Assembly: GCF_002797595.1 (NCBI RefSeq)
Contig: NZ_PGFE01000002.1
Location: 310,001 to 374,000 of the forward strand
Direction of reading: 5' to 3'
DNA: 64,000 nt
Origin: Sediminihabitans luteus
GTDB lineage: Bacteria; Actinomycetota; Actinomycetes; Actinomycetales; Cellulomonadaceae
Shown: positions 2,270 through 29,428 of the stretch, piece by piece
Numbering within the stretch: the first letter of the stretch is position 1
Layout: every line of letters starts with the position of its first letter
The notes under the pieces: model-generated
Told to the model about the DNA's origin: nothing
Database searches by the model: none
The model's input: the letters and a program-made list of their open reading frames with translations, nothing else
Position numbers and translations under genes: made by a program

Positions 2270-4505
2270 CAAAAGGTCGACCGGCGTTCTCCGAGGACTA
2301 CTCATTGTCGCAGTGATCGGTGTGTGGCTCGCGCTCGGCTCGCTCGGCGGACAGGCGCAGGGCAAGCTCTCGTCGGTCCAGACCAACGACTCGGCGGCGT
2401 TCCTGCCCGAGTCGGCCGAGTCCACCCGCGCCGCCGAGGCGGGCGCGGAGTTCGTCGACGCGGAGTCCCTGCCGGCGCTCGTCGTGGTCGAGGGTGCCGA
2501 CGGCGGCGCGCTGAGCCAGGAGCAGCTCGCGGCCGTGCAGTCCTGGGCGGACGACGTCCCCGGCCTCGCGCTCGAGGGCGCGGGCGACGGGGAGCCGCAG
2601 ACCGTCGGCGACACGCTCACGGGCGACCCGGTCGTCGTCCCGTCGGAGGACGGCGAGTCCGCGCTCGTCGTCGTCTCCCTCGACGCCGGGACGTCGGCGG
2701 ACACGATCGGCGCCGACGAGGAGAGCGTCAACGACGTCGTCGTCGAGGCCATGCGGGCGGCCGACGGCCCGCTGACCGAGGCCGGGCTCGACGCCTACGT
2801 CACCGGGCCCGCCGGGTTCGTGGCCGACCTCGTGAGCGCGTTCGGGGGCATCGACACCGTGCTGCTGCTCGTCGCGCTCGTCGCGGTCCTCGCGATCCTC
2901 GCGGTGGTCTACCGCTCGCCGATCCTGCCGTTCCTCGTGATCCTCACCGCGGTGTTCGCGCTCAGCCTCGCCGGCCTCGTGGTCTACCACCTCGCCGACT
3001 CGGGCACCCTGACGCTCAACGGGCAGTCCCAGGGGATCCTGTCGATCCTCGTCGTCGGCGCCGCGGTCGACTACTCGCTGCTCGTCGTGGCGCGCTACCG
3101 CGAGGAGCTCGTGCACACGCGCAGCCCGTACCAGGCCGTGCGGCAGGCCGTGCGCGCCTCGCTCGAGCCGATCGCCGCGAGCGCCGGGACCGTGATCGCG
3201 GGCCTGCTGTGCCTGCTGCTGTCCGACCTCGCGTCGAACCGGTCGCTCGGGCCCGTGGCCGCGATCGGCATCGCCGCGGCGTTCCTCGGCGCGCTCACGC
3301 TCCTGCCCGCGCTGCTCGTCGTGGCCGGCACACGCTCGCGGGCGCTGTTCTGGCCTCGCATGCCGAAGTTCGTCGAGCGACCGGACGAGGGCGACGCCGA
3401 CGGCGCCCCGCGCACCGCGTCGGCCGACACCGACGACCACGTCGACGTCGAGGGTCACGGCGTGTGGTCCCGCATCGCGTCGTTCGTCGGACGTCGGGAC
3501 CGCGTCGTGTGGGTCGTCACCGCCCTCGTGCTCGCCGGGTGCGCGGCGTTCGTGCCGACGCTCGACGCGAACGGCACGGGCGACTCCGAGGTGTTCCTCA
3601 CGCAGGTCGACTCGGTCGACGGCGAGGCCGTGCTCGACGACCACTTCTCGGGCGTCTCGGCGCAGCCCGCGATCGTCGTGGCCCCCGAGGGCGACCTCGA
3701 CGCGGTCGTGACCGCCGCCCAGGGCACCCCCGGAGTCTCCGCGGCCGTCCCCGTGGCCGAGGGCGAGCCGTCCGCCCCCGGGGCACCCGCTTCCGGGCCT
3801 CCGGTGGTGATCGACGGGCAGGTGCGCGTCGACGTCACGACGACCGCGACGTCCGACTCGCAGGAGGCCGTCGAGACGGTCGCGGCCCTGCGCGACAGCG
3901 TGCACGCGGCGTCGCCCGAGGCGCTCGTCGGGGGCGCGGCCGCCGAGCGGCTCGACACCCAGCTCGCGGGCGAGCGCGACCTGCGGGTCATCGTCCCGGT
4001 CGTCCTGCTCGTGATCCTGCTGATCCTCATGCTGCTGCTGCGCTCGGTGCTCGCCGCGGTGCTGCTCGTGGCCGCGAACGTGCTCTCGTTCGGTGCCGCG
4101 CTCGGCGTCTCCGCGGTGATGTTCAACCACGTGTTCGACTTCCCGGGCGCCGACCCGTCCGTCCCGCTGTTCGCGTTCTGCTTCCTGGTCGCGCTCGGCG
4201 TCGACTACTCGATCTTCCTCATGACCCGGGTGCGCGAGGAGTCGTTGCAGGTGGGCACGCGTCCGGGCGTGCTGCGGGCGCTCGCGGTGACCGGCTCGGT
4301 CATCACGTCCGCCGGCGTCGTGCTGGCCGCGACGTTCGCGGCGCTCGGCGTGATCCCGCTGCTGTTCCTCGCGCAGATCGCGTTCGTGGTCGCCTTCGGC
4401 GTGCTCGTGGACACGTTCGTGGTGCGGTCGCTGCTCGTGCCCGCGCTCGTGCACGACATCGGGCGTCGCACGTGGTGGCCCAACCGTGCTGGGATGAGGG
4501 CATGA
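2262..4505 (+). CDS. MMPL/RND-type membrane exporter
   Basis: A 747-residue membrane protein of the MMPL family, which moves lipids, siderophores or drugs across the plasma membrane using proton motive force. The layout is right: one N-terminal helix (residues ~8-26), an extracytoplasmic domain, five clustered helices starting with IDTVLLLVALVAVLAILAVV, a cytoplasmic loop with an acidic Asp/Glu-rich stretch, then a second copy of the same plan. The twin helix-4 motifs VDYSLLVVARYREE and VDYSIFLMTRVREE carry the proton-relay D-Y pairs. An upstream in-frame start (2139) would overlap the MarR gene and adds non-conserved sequence. It is divergent from that regulator and overlaps the next gene by ATGA, so the two are probably co-transcribed. 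Confidence 0.92.
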   Translation: MLSKRSTGVLRGLLIVAVIGVWLALGSLGGQAQGKLSSVQTNDSAAFLPESAESTRAAEAGAEFVDAESLPALVVVEGADGGALSQEQLAAVQSWADDVPGLALEGAGDGEPQTVGDTLTGDPVVVPSEDGESALVVVSLDAGTSADTIGADEESVNDVVVEAMRAADGPLTEAGLDAYVTGPAGFVADLVSAFGGIDTVLLLVALVAVLAILAVVYRSPILPFLVILTAVFALSLAGLVVYHLADSGTLTLNGQSQGILSILVVGAAVDYSLLVVARYREELVHTRSPYQAVRQAVRASLEPIAASAGTVIAGLLCLLLSDLASNRSLGPVAAIGIAAAFLGALTLLPALLVVAGTRSRALFWPRMPKFVERPDEGDADGAPRTASADTDDHVDVEGHGVWSRIASFVGRRDRVVWVVTALVLAGCAAFVPTLDANGTGDSEVFLTQVDSVDGEAVLDDHFSGVSAQPAIVVAPEGDLDAVVTAAQGTPGVSAAVPVAEGEPSAPGAPASGPPVVIDGQVRVDVTTTATSDSQEAVETVAALRDSVHAASPEALVGGAAAERLDTQLAGERDLRVIVPVVLLVILLILMLLLRSVLAAVLLVAANVLSFGAALGVSAVMFNHVFDFPGADPSVPLFAFCFLVALGVDYSIFLMTRVREESLQVGTRPGVLRALAVTGSVITSAGVVLAATFAALGVIPLLFLAQIAFVVAFGVLVDTFVVRSLLVPALVHDIGRRTWWPNRAGMRA

Positions 4506-5554
4506 GTTCCGAGAACCCCACGAGGATCGCGGTCGTCGGCTACGGCGGCGCGGGACGCGGCATCCACGCCCGCCTCGCGCGCGAGGCCGGTCTCGTCGTG
4601 ACGGCCGTCGTGGCCCGCGACCCGGGCCGTCGGGCGCAGGCGCTGGACGACTGGCCCGACGTCGCGCTGTGCGACGACCTGCCCGCGCTGCTCGCCCGGC
4701 CGGAGGCCTACGACGTGGTCGTGATCGCGTCGCCCACGCCGTTGCACGTCGAGCACGCGCGGGCCGTCGCCGCGGCCGGGGTGCGGTTCGTGCTCGACAA
4801 GCCCATCGCGCTCGACGCCGCGGGTGCGCGCGCCGTCGTCGACGCCGCGCGCGAGGCGGGCACCCCGTTCACGGTCTTCCAGAACCGCCGTTGGGACCCC
4901 GAGCAGCTCACGCTGCGCGCCGTGCTCGACCGCGGGGAGCTCGGTGAGGTCCATACCTTCGAGCGGCGCTGGGAACGGTACCGGCCCGTGCCGCGGCAGC
5001 GCTGGAAGGAGAACGACCTCGCAGGCGGCGGGCTGCTGCTCGACCTCGGCCCGCACCTCGTCGACTCCGCGACGCAGCTCTTCGGCCCCGTCGAGTCGGT
5101 GTACGCCGAGATGCGCGCCCTGACCACGCCCACCGAGGACGACGTCTTCCTGACCCTGCACCACGCGCCCGGCGAGGGCCGGGGCGTCGTCAGTCGGCTC
5201 TGGGCGGCGTCGGTCGTGGGCGCCCCCGGACCCCGCACGCGCGTGCTGGGCACCGACGGCGCGTTCGTCGTGACGACCTTCGAGGACGACGCGTCCCCGT
5301 TTGAGGTGTTCGACGACGCCGCGCCCGCGGGCACCGAGGGCTGGGTCACCAGGGCGCGCGAGCGCACGCCCGTGCCGCGCGCCCCGGGCGGGCACGCCGA
5401 CTTCTACCGGGCGGTCGACGCGTGGGTCCGTGGTCGTGGCCCCGTGCCCGTGGACCCCGCCGACGCGGTGCGCACCGCGCAGGTGCTCGACGCCGCACGC
5501 GAGTCGGCCCGGACGGGTTCGCGCGTGCGGGTCGCCGCGCCGCGGGAGGGCTGA
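4502..5554 (+). CDS. Gfo/Idh/MocA-family NAD(P)-dependent oxidoreductase
   Basis: A 350-residue protein with an N-terminal Rossmann fold (RIAVVGYGGAGRGIHARLA, residues ~8-26) and the family signature of the cofactor domain, FVLDKPIALDAAGARAVVDAA, where the E/D-K-P lysine binds substrate. The C-terminal half contains GGGLLLDLGPHLVDSATQLFG, the G-G-x-x-x-D-x-G-x-H motif with the catalytic histidine. Enzymes of this family oxidise or reduce sugars, inositols or related polyols with NAD(P); the closest named type is E. coli YdgJ/scyllo-inositol dehydrogenase-like, but the substrate is not determined. It starts inside the stop of the MMPL gene (ATGA overlap), suggesting translational coupling. Confidence 0.9.
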   Translation: MSSENPTRIAVVGYGGAGRGIHARLAREAGLVVTAVVARDPGRRAQALDDWPDVALCDDLPALLARPEAYDVVVIASPTPLHVEHARAVAAAGVRFVLDKPIALDAAGARAVVDAAREAGTPFTVFQNRRWDPEQLTLRAVLDRGELGEVHTFERRWERYRPVPRQRWKENDLAGGGLLLDLGPHLVDSATQLFGPVESVYAEMRALTTPTEDDVFLTLHHAPGEGRGVVSRLWAASVVGAPGPRTRVLGTDGAFVVTTFEDDASPFEVFDDAAPAGTEGWVTRARERTPVPRAPGGHADFYRAVDAWVRGRGPVPVDPADAVRTAQVLDAARESARTGSRVRVAAPREG

Positions 5555-24698: not shown

Positions 24699-24762
24699 GG
24701 CTTCATGATCGCACAGCGGGGCGCGCCCGGTCCGGGCGTGCTGGCCTGCGAGAATGCCGCGC

Positions 24763-25824
24763 ATGGCCACCGCGCGCGTGCTCGTCCTGTCCTCGACCGA
24801 CGCCGGGACGACCCGTTCGCGGGAAGGCGCGACCGGTCCCGCGACCGGTCCGGCGCACGACGCCGGCGGGGCCGCGCAGGACTTCGGCACGGCCGCGGAC
24901 GCCGTCGCACGGGCCTGGTCCGCCGCCGAGCCGCACGCCGTGGTGACCCGCCGCACGCTCGACGTGCACGACCCCGTGCTGCGCGCCGCGCTGCGTGCCG
25001 CTGAGCCGCCCACCGAGGTCGTCGCCGCGACGAGCTCGGGCGCCGCGGGCCGGGCCGTGCTGGACGCCGTGCGCGACGGCGCACGACGCGTCGTCGTCCC
25101 TCTCGCGGACGTGACGACCCACGACGGCGGGCACGGGTTCCTCACGGCGCTCCTCGGTGACGCACCGGCCGACGAGCGCGCACCGGCCGACGAGCCCGTC
25201 CCGGCCGACGCGCTCGTGCGCGCCGCACGCGCCGCGCTGCGCGGCGTCGACCTCGTCGCTCTCGTGCACGACGACCTCCCGCTGCTCGGCCTCCACGGCG
25301 CCACCGCGACCCGCGCCGACCGCGGGCAGGACGTCGGCGGCGACCCGCAGCAGGTCGAGCGCTCGCTCTCGGCGCTCGCGGACGACCTCGCGCGCGGCGT
25401 CCACGACGTCGCGGGCGACCTCCTCGCAGGCTCCGACGCCCGCTCGACCTTCCGCCGACTCACGAGCACGCCGGGAGCGGGCGACGGCGGCGGGCTCGGG
25501 TTCGGCATGCTCGTCGCGGGCGGGCGCCTCGTCGACGCCGCACGGTGGGCCGGTGCCGCGACCGACCTCGACGCCGCGATCAGCGGGGTAGACCTCGTGG
25601 TCGTGGTGCGCGAGGTCCTCGACGGGACCGCGCTGCACGGGGGCGAGGTGCCGGACGCCGTCCGCCGGGCCGGGCCTCTGGGCGTGCCCGTGGTCGTCCT
25701 GGCCGCCGACGTGCGGGTCGGTCGGCGGGAGACCGGCGCCGCAGGGCTCGCGGGGGCCTACGCGCTCGAGGACTCCGACGCGCACGTGCGGCGGATCGCC
25801 AGGACCTGGACCCCGGCCCGGTAG
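24763..25824 (+). CDS. Diverged glycerate-kinase-like protein
   Basis: A 353-residue protein from ATG 24763 (GAGA nine bases upstream; ATG 24754 is an alternative). Parts align by eye with glycerate 2-kinase of the GlxK/GarK family: DDLPLLGLHGATATRADRGQ resembles the family's D-x-x-x-x-L-x-G-x-x-G-A block before F-G-P-Q-K-G, QVERSLSALADDLARG follows as expected, and TSTPGAGDGGGLGFGMLVAG matches the late glycine-rich block. However the early G-G-S-A-T-N-D-G-G motif has become VTTHDGGHG, so catalysis is doubtful. An insert with ADERAPADEPVPAD repeats lies near the middle. A non-enzymatic or altered role is likely; the family call is moderately secure. Confidence 0.6.
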   Translation: MATARVLVLSSTDAGTTRSREGATGPATGPAHDAGGAAQDFGTAADAVARAWSAAEPHAVVTRRTLDVHDPVLRAALRAAEPPTEVVAATSSGAAGRAVLDAVRDGARRVVVPLADVTTHDGGHGFLTALLGDAPADERAPADEPVPADALVRAARAALRGVDLVALVHDDLPLLGLHGATATRADRGQDVGGDPQQVERSLSALADDLARGVHDVAGDLLAGSDARSTFRRLTSTPGAGDGGGLGFGMLVAGGRLVDAARWAGAATDLDAAISGVDLVVVVREVLDGTALHGGEVPDAVRRAGPLGVPVVVLAADVRVGRRETGAAGLAGAYALEDSDAHVRRIARTWTPAR

Positions 25825-26016
25825 CCCCGGGACGGTGGGCACGCGGACAGCAGCGACCGGGACAGCAGACCCCGGGACGGTGGACCCCTGGACCTGCCGC
25901 GGCACTCGGGGCGTAGACTCGGGAACAGACGCGACCCCGGCGCTGTTCGCACGGGAGACGCGCCGGGACGACGGCGTCGTCGCACGCGACAGGGACCTAC
26001 GACCGCGGAGATGCAC

Positions 26017-26370
26017 ATGAGCGAGACCACCGAGACCACGACCACGCACGGCGTGCTGCTGACCGACGTCGCCGCGGGCAAGGTCCGCAGCCTCCTCGAG
26101 CAGGAGGGCCGCGACGACCTGCGTCTGCGCGTCGCCGTCCAGCCCGGCGGCTGCTCGGGCCTGATCTACCAGCTCTACTTCGACGAGCGCGTGCTCGACG
26201 GCGACGCGCTTAAGGACTACGACGGCGTCGAGGTCGTCGTCGACAAGATGAGCGTCCCCTACCTCGAGGGCGCGACGATCGACTTCGCGGACACCATCGA
26301 GAAGCAGGGCTTCACGATCGACAACCCCAACGCGGGCAGCGCCTGCGCGTGCGGCGGCTCGTTCAGCTGA
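26017..26370 (+). CDS. erpA: ErpA/HesB-type iron-sulfur cluster insertion protein
   Basis: A 117-residue A-type Fe-S carrier that delivers clusters to apoproteins. The three conserved cysteines are present: one in VQPGGCSGLIYQLYF and two in the C-terminal SACACGG. GVLLTDVAAGKVRSLLEQEG is the usual N-terminal strand-helix. ATG 26017 has GGAG six bases upstream and is preferred to ATG 26011. The symbol is by homology; actinobacterial A-type proteins are single copies that could equally be called IscA-like. The 192-base gap before it holds a direct repeat of CCCCGGGACGGTGG (25826 and 25869). A perfect hairpin follows the stop. Confidence 0.92.
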   Translation: MSETTETTTTHGVLLTDVAAGKVRSLLEQEGRDDLRLRVAVQPGGCSGLIYQLYFDERVLDGDALKDYDGVEVVVDKMSVPYLEGATIDFADTIEKQGFTIDNPNAGSACACGGSFS

Positions 26371-26391: not shown

Positions 26392-26421
26392 AAGGCCCCG
26401 GTCCCCACGGACCGGGGCCTT
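26392..26421 (+). terminator. Terminator after erpA
   Basis: AAGGCCCCGGTCC (26392-26404) and GGACCGGGGCCTT (26409-26421) form a perfect 13-bp stem with a 4-base loop, 22 bases past the erpA stop, followed by TCGTCGTC. This is a typical intrinsic-terminator shape for a high-GC genome. Confidence 0.85.
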
Positions 26422-26442
26422 CGTCGTCACCGGGCCGTCGTC

Positions 26443-26515
26443 GTCACCAGTGCCTTCCTCGTCACCAGTGCCTTCCTCGTCACCAGAGATGTCCTCGTCA
26501 CCGGTGCCTTCCTTC
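26443..26515 (+). repeat. 18-bp tandem repeats between erpA and the TusA-like gene
   Basis: GTCACCAGTGCCTTCCTC is perfectly repeated at 26443 and 26461, followed by diverged units at 26479 and 26497 (the latter 19 bp); partial units flank both sides (from 26426 and to about 26533). The array lies between the convergent 3' ends of erpA and the TusA-like gene. Confidence 0.85.
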
Positions 26516-26544
26516 GTCACCGAGCCCGACGACGGTGCGTCATC

Positions 26545-26856
26545 TCACTGAGCACCGCCCAGCCGCACGGTCACGGACCAGACCCGCGTCCCGTCGTCCG
26601 CGGCCGACTCGTCCGTGGCAACGAACGCGTGGCCGCGCATGCGGGCCCAGGCGGGCACGTCGTGGCGGGCGGCGGGGTCGGTCGACAGGACGCTGAGCAT
26701 CGTGCCCGGCGCGGCGTCGCGTGCTGCGGCCGCGAGCCGGATGACGGGTATCGGGCAGCGCAGGCCTCGCGCGTCGACCACGACGTCGGCCGCGATCTCG
26801 GCGTGGACGTCGGCCGTGTCGGCGGGGGAGTGGCCGCCGGCGTCGGGCGTGCTCAC
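26545..26856 (-). CDS. TusA/SirA-like sulfur carrier
   Basis: A 103-residue protein whose core is VVVDARGLRCPIPVIRLAAA, the TusA-family C-P-x-P motif with the persulfide-carrying cysteine at C34. The remainder (MLSVLSTDPAARHDVPAWAR, then HAFVATDE) matches the two-layer TusA fold. The N-terminal ~22 residues are an extra polar tail. TusA proteins accept sulfur from a cysteine desulfurase and pass it to tRNA thiolation, molybdopterin or other pathways. Its GTG overlaps the stop of the NifS-like gene (GTGA), so the two are translationally coupled, supporting a donor/acceptor pair. The odd active site of that partner makes the sulfur source uncertain. Confidence 0.88.
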   Translation of the reverse strand: MSTPDAGGHSPADTADVHAEIAADVVVDARGLRCPIPVIRLAAAARDAAPGTMLSVLSTDPAARHDVPAWARMRGHAFVATDESAADDGTRVWSVTVRLGGAQ

Positions 26857-28109
26857 AGGCCCTCGACCCCCAGAGCGCTGCGCACGCGCGCGACCGCGCC
26901 CGGCAGCACGGCACAGAACCGCTCGACGTCCTGCGACGTGGTCGAGCGGTCGAGCGCGATCCGCACGTTGCCGTGCGTGAGCACGCCCATCGCCGCGAGC
27001 ACGTGGCTCGGCTCGAGCGTGCTCGCGGTGCAGGCCGACCCCGAGCCGACGGCAAACCCGGCGCGGTCGAGCTCGCCCACGAGCGCCTCGCCGTCGACGT
27101 ACAGGCACGAGAACGTCACGACGTGGGGGAGCCGGGCGTCCGGGTCTCCCACGACCTCGGTGTCAGGGACCGACGCGGCCGCGCCGCGGATCCGGTCGAC
27201 CAGCTCCCGGCGGCGTGCGTCCTGGGCCGCGCGGTCGGCGAGCGTCGCCTCGAGCGTCACCGCGGCGGCGAACGCCGCGGGCACGCTCACCCCGCCGGGG
27301 AACCAGGGGTCGGCGTCCTCGGGCCAGGTCGCGCGCCACCGCACGCGCGGGCGCACGGCGAGCACGCCGACCCCGGGGACCGAGCCCCAGTCGGCGGGGT
27401 CCGCCGCGAGGACGTCCCACGCGCCGTCGACCGGCGAGTGCCCGAGGCTCGCGCCGGCGTCGACCAGGAGGGGGACGCCGGCGGCACGGGCCGCCTCAGC
27501 GGCCTCGGCGACCGGCTGGAGGGTGCCCACCTCGCCGTTGGCATGCTGGAGCGCGGCGAGCGCGACGCCCGGGGACGTGAGGGCCGCGACGAACGCCGGC
27601 AGGTCGACGCGGCCGGTCGCGTCGACGCGGACCTTCTCGACCGCGCCCGCCTCCACGGTGCCCGCCTCGACGCAGCCCGCACCGGCGGAGCGCCCGTCGG
27701 CAGCCCGCGCCTCGGTCGCGGGGGAGACCCCGGGCAGGGGTGCGGCCGCGGCGTTCAGGACCGCCGCGCGCTCGACCGCGGACGCCACGACCCGGTCGCC
27801 TGCGCGTCGGCGACCCGACCGCACCGCGGAGACCGCGGCGTGCAGCACGGCGGTGTGCGACGGCGCGAGATGCACGTCCTCGGTGCGCGCCCCGAGCCCT
27901 GCGGCGATCGACTCGCGGGCGGCGTCGAGCAGTCGGCGCGCACGTCGTCCTTCGCTGTGCAGACGACGCGGGTCCGCCCACCCGTCGTCGAGCGCCTGGA
28001 GGTAGGCCTGCCGCGCCAGCGGGTGCAGGACGGCGGCACCAGCGTTGTCGAGGTGGACGCGCCGCCCGCCGTCCTCGGGCGACGCAGGGCCCGGCGTGGT
28101 CTCGGTCAC
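26853..28109 (-). CDS. NifS-like class V aminotransferase-fold protein lacking the PLP lysine
   Basis: A 418-residue protein from GTG 28109 with GGAGG upstream. The class V (cysteine desulfurase) scaffold is clear: HLDNAGAAVLHPLA at ~19, LQHANGEVGTLQPV at ~188, LLVDAGASLGHSPVDGAWDV at ~214, and GSGSACTASTLEPSHVLAAMG with the active-site cysteine C360. But where desulfurases have S-x-H-K with the PLP lysine, this protein reads AADPADWGS, with D240 at the lysine position and A239 at the histidine. The PLP-contacting Gln is also replaced (A220). The whole protein has a single lysine, K159. It therefore cannot form the normal internal aldimine. It may be a non-catalytic sulfur-handling partner of the coupled TusA-like protein, or an enzyme with new chemistry. 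Divergent from ctaC. Confidence 0.8.
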   Translation of the reverse strand: MTETTPGPASPEDGGRRVHLDNAGAAVLHPLARQAYLQALDDGWADPRRLHSEGRRARRLLDAARESIAAGLGARTEDVHLAPSHTAVLHAAVSAVRSGRRRAGDRVVASAVERAAVLNAAAAPLPGVSPATEARAADGRSAGAGCVEAGTVEAGAVEKVRVDATGRVDLPAFVAALTSPGVALAALQHANGEVGTLQPVAEAAEAARAAGVPLLVDAGASLGHSPVDGAWDVLAADPADWGSVPGVGVLAVRPRVRWRATWPEDADPWFPGGVSVPAAFAAAVTLEATLADRAAQDARRRELVDRIRGAAASVPDTEVVGDPDARLPHVVTFSCLYVDGEALVGELDRAGFAVGSGSACTASTLEPSHVLAAMGVLTHGNVRIALDRSTTSQDVERFCAVLPGAVARVRSALGVEGL

Positions 28110-28495
28110 AGGTCCTCCGAAAGGTCGCAGGTCGGGCGGGGCGCGGCCCCGTGCGGGCGGTCGGGACGGGTCGGTGCTCGGGCGGCGGTCCGACGAGCCG
28201 CGCGCTGGTGCGCCCCGCGGGGCGTCGTCGGTCGGGTGCGCCCGACGGCGTCGCGCCGCCCCCACGCTATCGGTTTGCGGCAGGCTGGGCTGTTATCTGA
28301 CACTCGTGCGGAGCGTGTGGCGAAGATGCGCCACGGGTGCGGCGAATGTGACCTGGACCTGGCGCTCGGACGGCGCTTCCGGCGTCGCGGACCCGAATCC
28401 CGCGCTAGGCTTCGTGTGTCGAGGACGAAGGTTCTGCGTGGAACTCGTGGAGACGAGTCGCTCCCCACGTCAGGACGTGACGTGAAAGGCGCCCC
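28110..28495. other. Divergent intergenic region, NifS-like gene / ctaC
   Basis: 386 bases between divergent starts. The left half is GC-rich and holds the ribosome site of the NifS-like gene. The right half is less GC-rich and probably carries the ctaC promoter; TAGGCT at 28406-28411 is a possible -10 box but I see no convincing -35 partner. AAAGG at 28485-28489 is the likely ctaC ribosome site. No ORF here looks coding. Confidence 0.5.
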
Positions 28496-29428
28496 TTGCG
28501 TTCGCATCCCCCTAGCCGCACCCGGCTCGCACTCCTGTCGACGGCAGTCGCCGTCGGTGGTGCAGTGCTGCTCTCCGGTTGTGCCAACGAGTCCGTCCAG
28601 CGTGGCTTCCTGCCCGGGTACGACACGGAGGTGACCAACCAGACCGCCCGCATCACCGACCTGTGGGTCGGTGCCTGGGAGGCGGCTCTCGTGGTCGGCC
28701 TCATCACGTGGGGCCTGATGCTGTGGTGCATCACCGTGTACCGCAAGCGCAAGGACGACCACCAGCTGCCCGTCCAGACGCGGTACCACATGCCGCTCGA
28801 GATCATGTACACGGCCGTGCCGACCATCATGATCCTCGTGCTGTTCCAGTTCACCCACCGGGACATGACCGAGATCCAGGACACGTCGGCCGAGCCGGAC
28901 GTGAACATCCAGGTCATCGGCAAGCAGTGGAGCTGGGACTTCAACTACGAGGACGACGACGTCTACGACGTCGGCCGCCAGGAGTCCGACCCGGGCTCGC
29001 TCGGCACGGCCGACCAGATCGACGCCGCGCCCGGGACGTCGGACACGCTCCCGACGCTCTACCTGCCCGTGAACAAGCGCGTCGAGTTCACGCTCAACTC
29101 GCGCGACGTCATCCACTCGTTCTGGATCCCCGCGTTCCTCTACAAGCAGGACATGGTGCCGGGACGCACGAACACGTTCCAGGTCGTCCCCACGCGTGAG
29201 GGCGTCTACGCCGGCAAGTGCGCCGAGCTCTGCGGCGAGTTCCACTCGGGCATGCTCTTCAACGTCGCCGTCGTCTCCGAGGAGGAGTACGAGCAGCACA
29301 TGCAGGAGCTGCGCGACGCCGGCCAGGACGGGCAGATCCCGGTCGAAGGATTCAGCCGACTGCAGCACGAGCCCGAGACGCCCGCCGTCGAGGACTCCGC
29401 CGCGGACAGCACGGAAGGTGAGCACTGA
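28496..29428 (+). CDS. ctaC: Cytochrome c oxidase subunit II (lipoprotein)
   Basis: A 310-residue subunit of the aa3 oxidase that receives electrons through its CuA centre. The N-terminus is a lipoprotein signal peptide ending in the lipobox LLSGC. Two helices follow ([20 protein letters not shown] and the segment [19 protein letters not shown]), then the extracytoplasmic cupredoxin domain with [12 protein letters not shown] and the CuA ligands in the late [12 protein letters not shown]. The start is a rare TTG at 28496 with AAAGG seven bases upstream; it gives the best signal peptide. The C-terminal tail is acidic. First gene of ctaC-ctaD-ctaF, with a TGATG junction to ctaD. Confidence 0.96.

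Follow-up and report, generated by a model that had tools for sequence, protein, structure and literature searches.

A TusA-linked NifS-like protein family without the PLP-binding lysine in an actinobacterial order

The IscS of A. fulgidus (4eb5, 4eb7, and 4hvk; 4r5f is the D199K mutant) shares the NifS fold, an Asp in place of the Lys, an Ala in place of the Gln, and the loop Cys with a NifS-like protein encoded in the window, that is, the whole stretch of 64,000 nucleotides of Sediminihabitans luteus DNA analysed here. Alignment revealed that A. fulgidus IscS differs from the window protein in keeping the stacking His and in having a Leu at the position of Arg383; its partner is IscU. In the cited passage of PMC7585200, A. 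fulgidus IscS is reported to be without desulfurase activity, and Methanosarcina acetivorans IscS1, which likewise lacks the catalytic lysine, is described as pairing with IscU1 and as forming inclusion bodies when expressed. Compared by this description, IscS1 is a lysine-less IscS homologue like the window protein, but it is archaeal and has IscU1 as its partner. An actinobacterial lysine-less relative of the desulfurases, M. tuberculosis Rv3778c, was also compared by description; the cited passage presents it as likely noncatalytic and only distantly related to cysteine desulfurases, and notes no link to TusA (PMC12910592).

In the E. coli IscS–TusA complex (3lvj), the loop Cys of the desulfurase fold hands sulfur to TusA, and IscS Cys328 lies about 4 Å from TusA Cys19, as far as the cited part of PMC2854127 describes it. 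E. coli IscS has PLP and Lys206, and the positions of its Trp45 and Glu49 differ in the window protein. Our literature search, which was limited in coverage and terms and is no proof, recognised no publication describing this actinobacterial family. What seems to be new, in our view, is a TusA-linked bacterial family that spans an order and has orthologues with the lysine at the same locus. The A. fulgidus IscS is taken as an independent origin of the same state, because lysine-bearing actinobacterial orthologues share the locus of the window.

The NifS-like gene, tusA, and their neighbours

The NifS-like gene (positions 26853–28109, reverse strand) is an uninterrupted reading frame from a GTG at 28109 to a TGA at 26853, encodes 418 residues, and is preceded by GGAGG at 28114–28118 on the same strand, 4 nt upstream of the GTG. 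Its TGA is overlapped by the GTG start of a gene for a TusA-like sulfur carrier of 103 residues (26545–26856, reverse strand). The NifS-like protein belongs to class V by its Aminotran_5 match (96.1 bits; Pfam cut-off 21.5), and the TusA-like protein, the single TusA match in a search of the whole genome, scored 68.8 bits against PF01206 (cut-off 28.6) and has the Cys-Pro in the sequence RGLRCPIP, which includes the RGLRCP motif. The best NCBIfam match of the NifS-like protein was NifS TIGR03402 (176.1 bits; cut-off 530.75), and it reached none of the curated NCBIfam cut-offs for NifS, IscS, and SufS; this is weak evidence, as the lysine-bearing IscS-type protein of the same genome falls short as well (367.9 bits).

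The AlphaFold2 model (alignment n = 47) had a mean pLDDT of 89, with the Cys loop (residues 359–363) below 50. Foldseek placed Mtb IscS 4isy first (TMt 0.89) and A. fulgidus 4eb5, 4hvk, and 4r5f at ranks 9, 19, and 22; in the phmmer search, the first two rows were A. fulgidus IscS and its D199K mutant. The window protein has the A. fulgidus-type combination of a replaced Lys and a kept Cys loop, and the neighbours in the window are TusA, ErpA, and CtaC. The convergent neighbour ErpA (26011–26370, forward strand) matched NF010147 with 118.8 bits (cut-off 117), and the divergent neighbour CtaC, the aa3 cytochrome oxidase subunit II (28496–29428, forward strand), matched NF050117 with 345.5 bits (cut-off 250). 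Between NadA and ErpA lies a glycerate-kinase-like gene (24754–25824, forward strand; TIGR00045, 50.2 bits, below the cut-off of 168.45). The interval between erpA and tusA (26400–26520) contains, by eye, short imperfect direct repeats and a G+C-rich inverted repeat, and is possibly the terminator region of erpA.

Orthologues with and without the lysine

Searches of the window's family gave matches in 197 of 200 genomes at E 1e-3; in 29 of the 200, no match reached E 1e-47 (weaker matches in 26 and none at all in 3), and 6 of the 26 had a short high-identity match, which indicates a partial gene. At the level of the class, 127 of 296 genomes matched at 1e-60, and 60 loci were taken; 57 of these came from the 122 matches outside the order. 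At the level of the order, 103 of 396 sampled genomes matched at 1e-50, and 41 genomes outside the family were taken of 69 matches. A contig search confirmed 530 candidates, of which the best 80 were obtained, and other searches supplied further members of the family. One row was kept per locus, and rows below 150 bits, identical rows, and the fragments L163 and L214 were removed; the resulting 217 orthologue rows comprise 151 lysine-less and 66 lysine-bearing ones, and all counts below are of rows, not of independent events.

None of the 93 rows of coded kinship within the window's order (own, genus, family, and order), which we take to be the GTDB Actinomycetales, retains the lysine. Same-class rows outside the order have it in 52 of 56 cases, the 4 lysine-less ones being L167, L172, L178, and L183. 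The 68 rows without a kinship code divide into 54 lysine-less rows, among them Cellulomonas, Oerskovia, Isoptericola, Promicromonospora, Kineosporia, Pedococcus, and Demequina, and 14 lysine-bearing rows from Kribbella, Micromonosporaceae, and Streptomyces. The 66 rows that retain the lysine include none known to lie inside the order. As many as 151 of the 217 rows, spread over many genera, lack it and all 217 keep C360, which is more than chance would give. Within the order, where 0 of 93 rows have the lysine, a strain-specific loss, which a majority of lysine-retaining orthologues would have indicated, is rejected.

Rows of both kinds mostly occur at one locus. Within the flanks shown, CtaC is found beside 62 of the 66 lysine-bearing and 148 of the 151 lysine-less rows, ErpA beside 48 and 136, and NadA beside 19 and 84, and the two kinds are therefore positional orthologues. 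The TusA-linked, lysine-bearing orthologues of Streptomyces, Kribbella, and Micromonosporaceae, which have TusA adjacent or fused, belong to the same family and locus, differ in keeping the Lys, the stacking His, and the phosphate Ser, and presumably are active desulfurases. Co-loss with the cytochrome oxidase was considered and set aside: a CtaC match (E 1e-10) was absent from 5 of 10 family genomes queried (G177, G194, G197, G119, which is 79% complete, and G079) and present in the other 5. Genomes G177, G194, and G197 have neither CtaC at 1e-10 nor a NifS-like orthologue (G197 only at E 5.5e-5), a possible loss of the whole block.

A tree of 101 rows, built without an outgroup and with the trait columns removed, has 4 changes of lysine state, which we read as the order versus the rest (branch support 90/100, not starred) and L172, L167, and L178 individually; L183 was excluded as a long branch. 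When IscS-type paralogues of the window genome and of genus mates served as the outgroup (119 rows), the number of changes was 5, and the outgroup attached among the lysine-less rows on very long branches, which counts against reading the change as a loss. We regard this root as probable long-branch attraction and distrust it because the lysine-bearing rows hold the canonical His114 and Ser237 (66/66) along with the Lys. For the same reason, a regain of the Lys from a lysine-less ancestor was set aside, although the rooted tree alone would not distinguish loss from gain. TusA, ErpA, and CtaC mark a locus common to most lysine-bearing and most lysine-less rows, so the lysine was probably lost in place, in a single event for the order and in three or four others outside it.

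The lysine-less genes evolve under purifying selection similar to that on their lysine-bearing relatives. By the Nei–Gojobori method, applied to non-overlapping pairs with 78–97% protein identity and dS below 1.2, the 35 lysine-less pairs had a median dN/dS of 0.174 (maximum 0.237) and the 12 lysine-bearing pairs one of 0.171; the 7 lysine-less pairs whose first member is without TusA ranged from 0.114 to 0.227.

Substitutions in the PLP pocket and conservation of the loop cysteine

The window protein reads D237-P-A-D240 where NifS/IscS proteins read S-x-H-K. Comparison of the 217 rows revealed that (i) D240 (GAC codon, 27392–27390, reverse strand) occupies the position of the Schiff-base lysine; (ii) D237 (27399–27401, reverse strand) replaces a Ser, presumably the phosphate-binding residue, which is Ser in 66/66 rows with the Lys and Asp in 125/151 without it; (iii) R114 (27768–27770, reverse strand) stands at the position of the PLP-stacking His (IscS His104), which is His in all 66 lysine-bearing rows, Arg in 126 of the 151 lysine-less rows, and lost in 129 of them; (iv) A220 (27450–27452, reverse strand) corresponds to the PLP-contacting Gln183 of IscS, and Gln is found in 43/66 lysine-bearing and 0/151 lysine-less rows; and (v) Gly85, with a frequency of 1.00 in the 66 lysine-bearing rows, is His in 65% of the lysine-less ones. 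The Lys, the stacking His, the phosphate Ser, and the Gln are substituted together in most lysine-less rows. By contrast, three residues are kept in 217/217 rows: D217 (27459–27461, reverse strand; IscS Asp180, PLP N1), C360 (27030–27032, reverse strand; IscS Cys328, the persulfide-loop cysteine), and R383 (26961–26963, reverse strand; IscS Arg354, substrate carboxylate). Asn191 is conserved in 151/151 lysine-less rows. The IscS numbering (His104, Asp180, Gln183, Lys206, Cys328, and Arg354) follows the cited part of PMC9978102.

The translation bears out what the initial annotation had read from it, namely the Lys-to-Asp change at 240, A239, A220, C360, K159 as the sole lysine of the 418 residues, and the absence of a frameshift, which agrees with the intact reading frame and the GAC codon; the changes at positions 114 (His to Arg), 237 (Ser to Asp), and 85 (Gly to His) go beyond its list. 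No conserved Lys column exists in the lysine-less rows, the commonest having Lys in 7/151, which rules out another lysine as the Schiff base.

Position 240 is itself variable in the 151 lysine-less rows (D in 112, S in 19, A in 9, E in 4, T in 4, G in 2, and M in 1), which suggests that the Asp as such has no fixed role. An Arg at position 114 accompanies D or E at 240 in 115 rows and a His in none, a pairing for which the well-supported independent pairs that differ number only 3; our guess is a salt bridge between Arg114 and Asp240 that would fill the pocket.

In E. coli IscS, K206A, H104Q, and Q183E each abolish desulfurase activity, and the K206A protein still binds some PLP, according to the cited part of PMC9978102. 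Normal PLP desulfuration by the NifS-like protein is, judged by its residues, unlikely. A loss of activity seems better supported than a loss of PLP, and the protein may still bind PLP, because IscS K206A retains some PLP and a figure legend in the cited part of PMC9769115 has PLP in the lysine-less A. fulgidus 4EB5.

Linkage to TusA

A TusA domain is adjacent to or fused with the NifS-like protein in 64 of 66 lysine-bearing rows and in 115 of 151 lysine-less rows (114 adjacent and 1 fused). Lysine-bearing fusions are those of L127 (a Streptomyces) and of L158 and L185 (both f25). The sole lysine-less fusion (L241, positions 3647–5113, forward strand) is one reading frame with a T/P/V-rich linker and belongs to f55, the group that also contains a Kineosporia row on the tree. 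The Cys-Pro is kept in 114 of the 115 TusA domains of lysine-less rows; the TusA domains found without it are those of L260, where the Cys is lost, and L168, a partial match. The lysine-less copy at L260 (G619:C6) is the second one of that genome, the other being L261; its loop reads GCGCTCG, and the adjoining TusA-like protein has GLGNPTT, without the Cys, at its CP motif.

No TusA was found at the locus of 36 of the 151 lysine-less rows. A search of 22 whole genomes without TusA at the locus (including G619, where one of two loci has it) revealed (i) 6 with no TusA match anywhere (G031, G047, G264, G537, G583, and G730); (ii) 8 with a TusA domain within a frame of 833–911 codons (G007, G497, G548, G619, G747, G764, G772, and G788); and (iii) 8 with only a weak match of 28.3–34.8 bits (cut-off 28.6). 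Because 6 genomes with the NifS-like protein have no TusA, transfer to TusA cannot be its only retained function, and another acceptor or a cluster-ligand role like that of A. fulgidus IscS must be allowed for such lineages. In the 36 lysine-less rows without TusA, C360 and the GSAC loop are nevertheless among the most conserved residues, with frequencies of 1.00.

The presence of TusA is tracked most closely by H379 (26973–26975, reverse strand), which is His in 114/115 lysine-less rows with TusA and in 9/36 without. On a tree covering 112 of the 151 lysine-less rows, the presence of TusA switches 11 times; among roughly 10 independent pairs, H379 varies in the same sense as TusA in 7.2 and in the opposite sense in 0.0 (sign test p ~0.016, range 0.008–0.031, a value that would fail correction for the 341 positions scanned). 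In that scan H379 ranked first, followed by 418 and 417, and position 364 was nearly as strong in the opposite direction. The signal at residues 417–418 is probably a DNA-level effect, because their codons overlap the TusA start codon. Positions 365 and 379 had been picked by eye before testing; L365, at the position of IscS Leu333, follows TusA in 3.6 versus 0.2 pairs, which is not significant. Leu333 is drawn at the interface in the IscS–TusA figure. When aligned by hand to IscS, R55 and R59 are unlike IscS Trp45 and Glu49, which means that the contacts of the IscS docking mode are not preserved position by position. The partnership with TusA claimed in the initial annotation is thus partly supported, by the 115 linked rows and the covarying H379, but fails as a general rule, given the 36/151 loci without TusA and the 6/22 genomes without any.

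Possible roles of the lysine-less protein

Handling of sulfur by C360, mostly for TusA, appears to be the best-supported role. On this view, a cysteine desulfurase once coupled to TusA would have given up PLP desulfuration in the ancestor of the order and been kept as a pseudoenzyme, presumably with the NifS fold and dimer retained. C360 on the mobile loop would take persulfide sulfur from elsewhere, either from the SufS or IscS-type proteins of the genome or from small persulfides, and would present it to a TusA docked beside the loop. In lineages without TusA, the same Cys loop may serve another acceptor, or may provide a ligand or a docking site, the part that Cys321 plays for IscU in A. 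fulgidus IscS. We put this reading, of a former TusA-coupled desulfurase whose C360 now accepts sulfur and presents it to TusA or takes another acceptor or ligand role where TusA is missing, at just under an even chance. Its stricter form, in which the order turned a TusA-dedicated desulfurase into a PLP-free, persulfide-carrying, TusA-docking NifS dimer that receives its sulfur from another desulfurase or from free persulfides and is selected for its Cys-loop function instead of desulfuration, is more tentative. Possible sulfur sources in the genome are a SufS (524.3 bits; TIGR01979 cut-off 475.1), a second SufS-like protein, and one IscS-type protein, all three with S-G-H-K. Two observations run counter to a PLP-free relay to TusA: D217 and R383 are invariant in the 151 lysine-less rows, which is odd for an empty pocket, and the Cys is kept where TusA is missing (36/151 loci and 6/22 whole genomes).

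Alternatively, C360 might ligate a metal or a nascent Fe–S cluster on a partner, for instance ErpA or SufU, with the TusA relay secondary or absent. A. fulgidus IscS offers a precedent, in that this protein with the same Lys-to-Asp change is reported inactive and its Cys321 goes to the IscU cluster (4eb5, 4hvk, and 4r5f; cited parts of PMC7585200 and PMC9769115). Cluster ligation would also account for the rows without TusA, and ErpA lies in the locus of 136/151 lysine-less rows. However, 10 of 12 loci taken from genomes that have no NifS-like gene also show ErpA beside CtaC; this adjacency therefore does not name a partner, and the case for ErpA from gene order is weakened; furthermore, the only NifU_N match of the genome adjoins SufS and not the NifS-like gene. 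We consider this role unlikely, if worth keeping in view.

The invariant D217, N191, and R383 (151/151 each), together with the PLP retained by IscS K206A and drawn in 4EB5, would fit non-covalent binding of PLP and a slow or different reaction that uses Asp217, Asn191, and Arg383. Against it stand the change of Ser to Asp in 125/151 rows, the loss of the stacking His in 129/151, the absence of the Gln in all 151, and the replacement of Gly85 by His in 65%, and we hold such a reaction to be rather improbable.

Regulation or chaperoning, by mixed dimers with a real desulfurase or by holding TusA, would require no sulfur on C360; the fold is kept (Foldseek), and three lysine-bearing desulfurase relatives are encoded in the genome, but the frequencies of 1.00 for C360 and the GSAC loop even without both Lys and TusA (36 rows) make this reading quite improbable. 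A decaying relic, pseudogene, or sequencing artefact, for which the patchy occurrence of the gene (293/396 order genomes without a match at E 1e-50) and one stop in a few matches (G277, G345, and G007) might speak, is refuted as far as sequence can show by the dN/dS of 0.174 and the 151 lysine-less rows across many genera, and is very improbable.

The proposal of the initial annotation that the protein has a selected function without normal PLP chemistry gains support from the 0/93 rows with Lys in the order, the dN/dS of 0.174 versus 0.171, and the lack of a substitute Lys. That annotation gave no precedent, whereas A. fulgidus IscS is a protein of this kind. The label "cysteine desulfurase" is probably wrong for the NifS-like gene across the order. 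The order-wide loss of PLP residues combined with strong selection on the Cys, usually beside a sulfur-carrier gene, points to a role in sulfur handling or docking that dispenses with the original chemistry. The family amounts to a natural experiment, in which evolution has separated PLP chemistry from loop-Cys transfer within one orthologous family that has active-looking relatives at the same locus, and it offers a testable case of sulfur relay or docking by a NifS fold without normal PLP chemistry.
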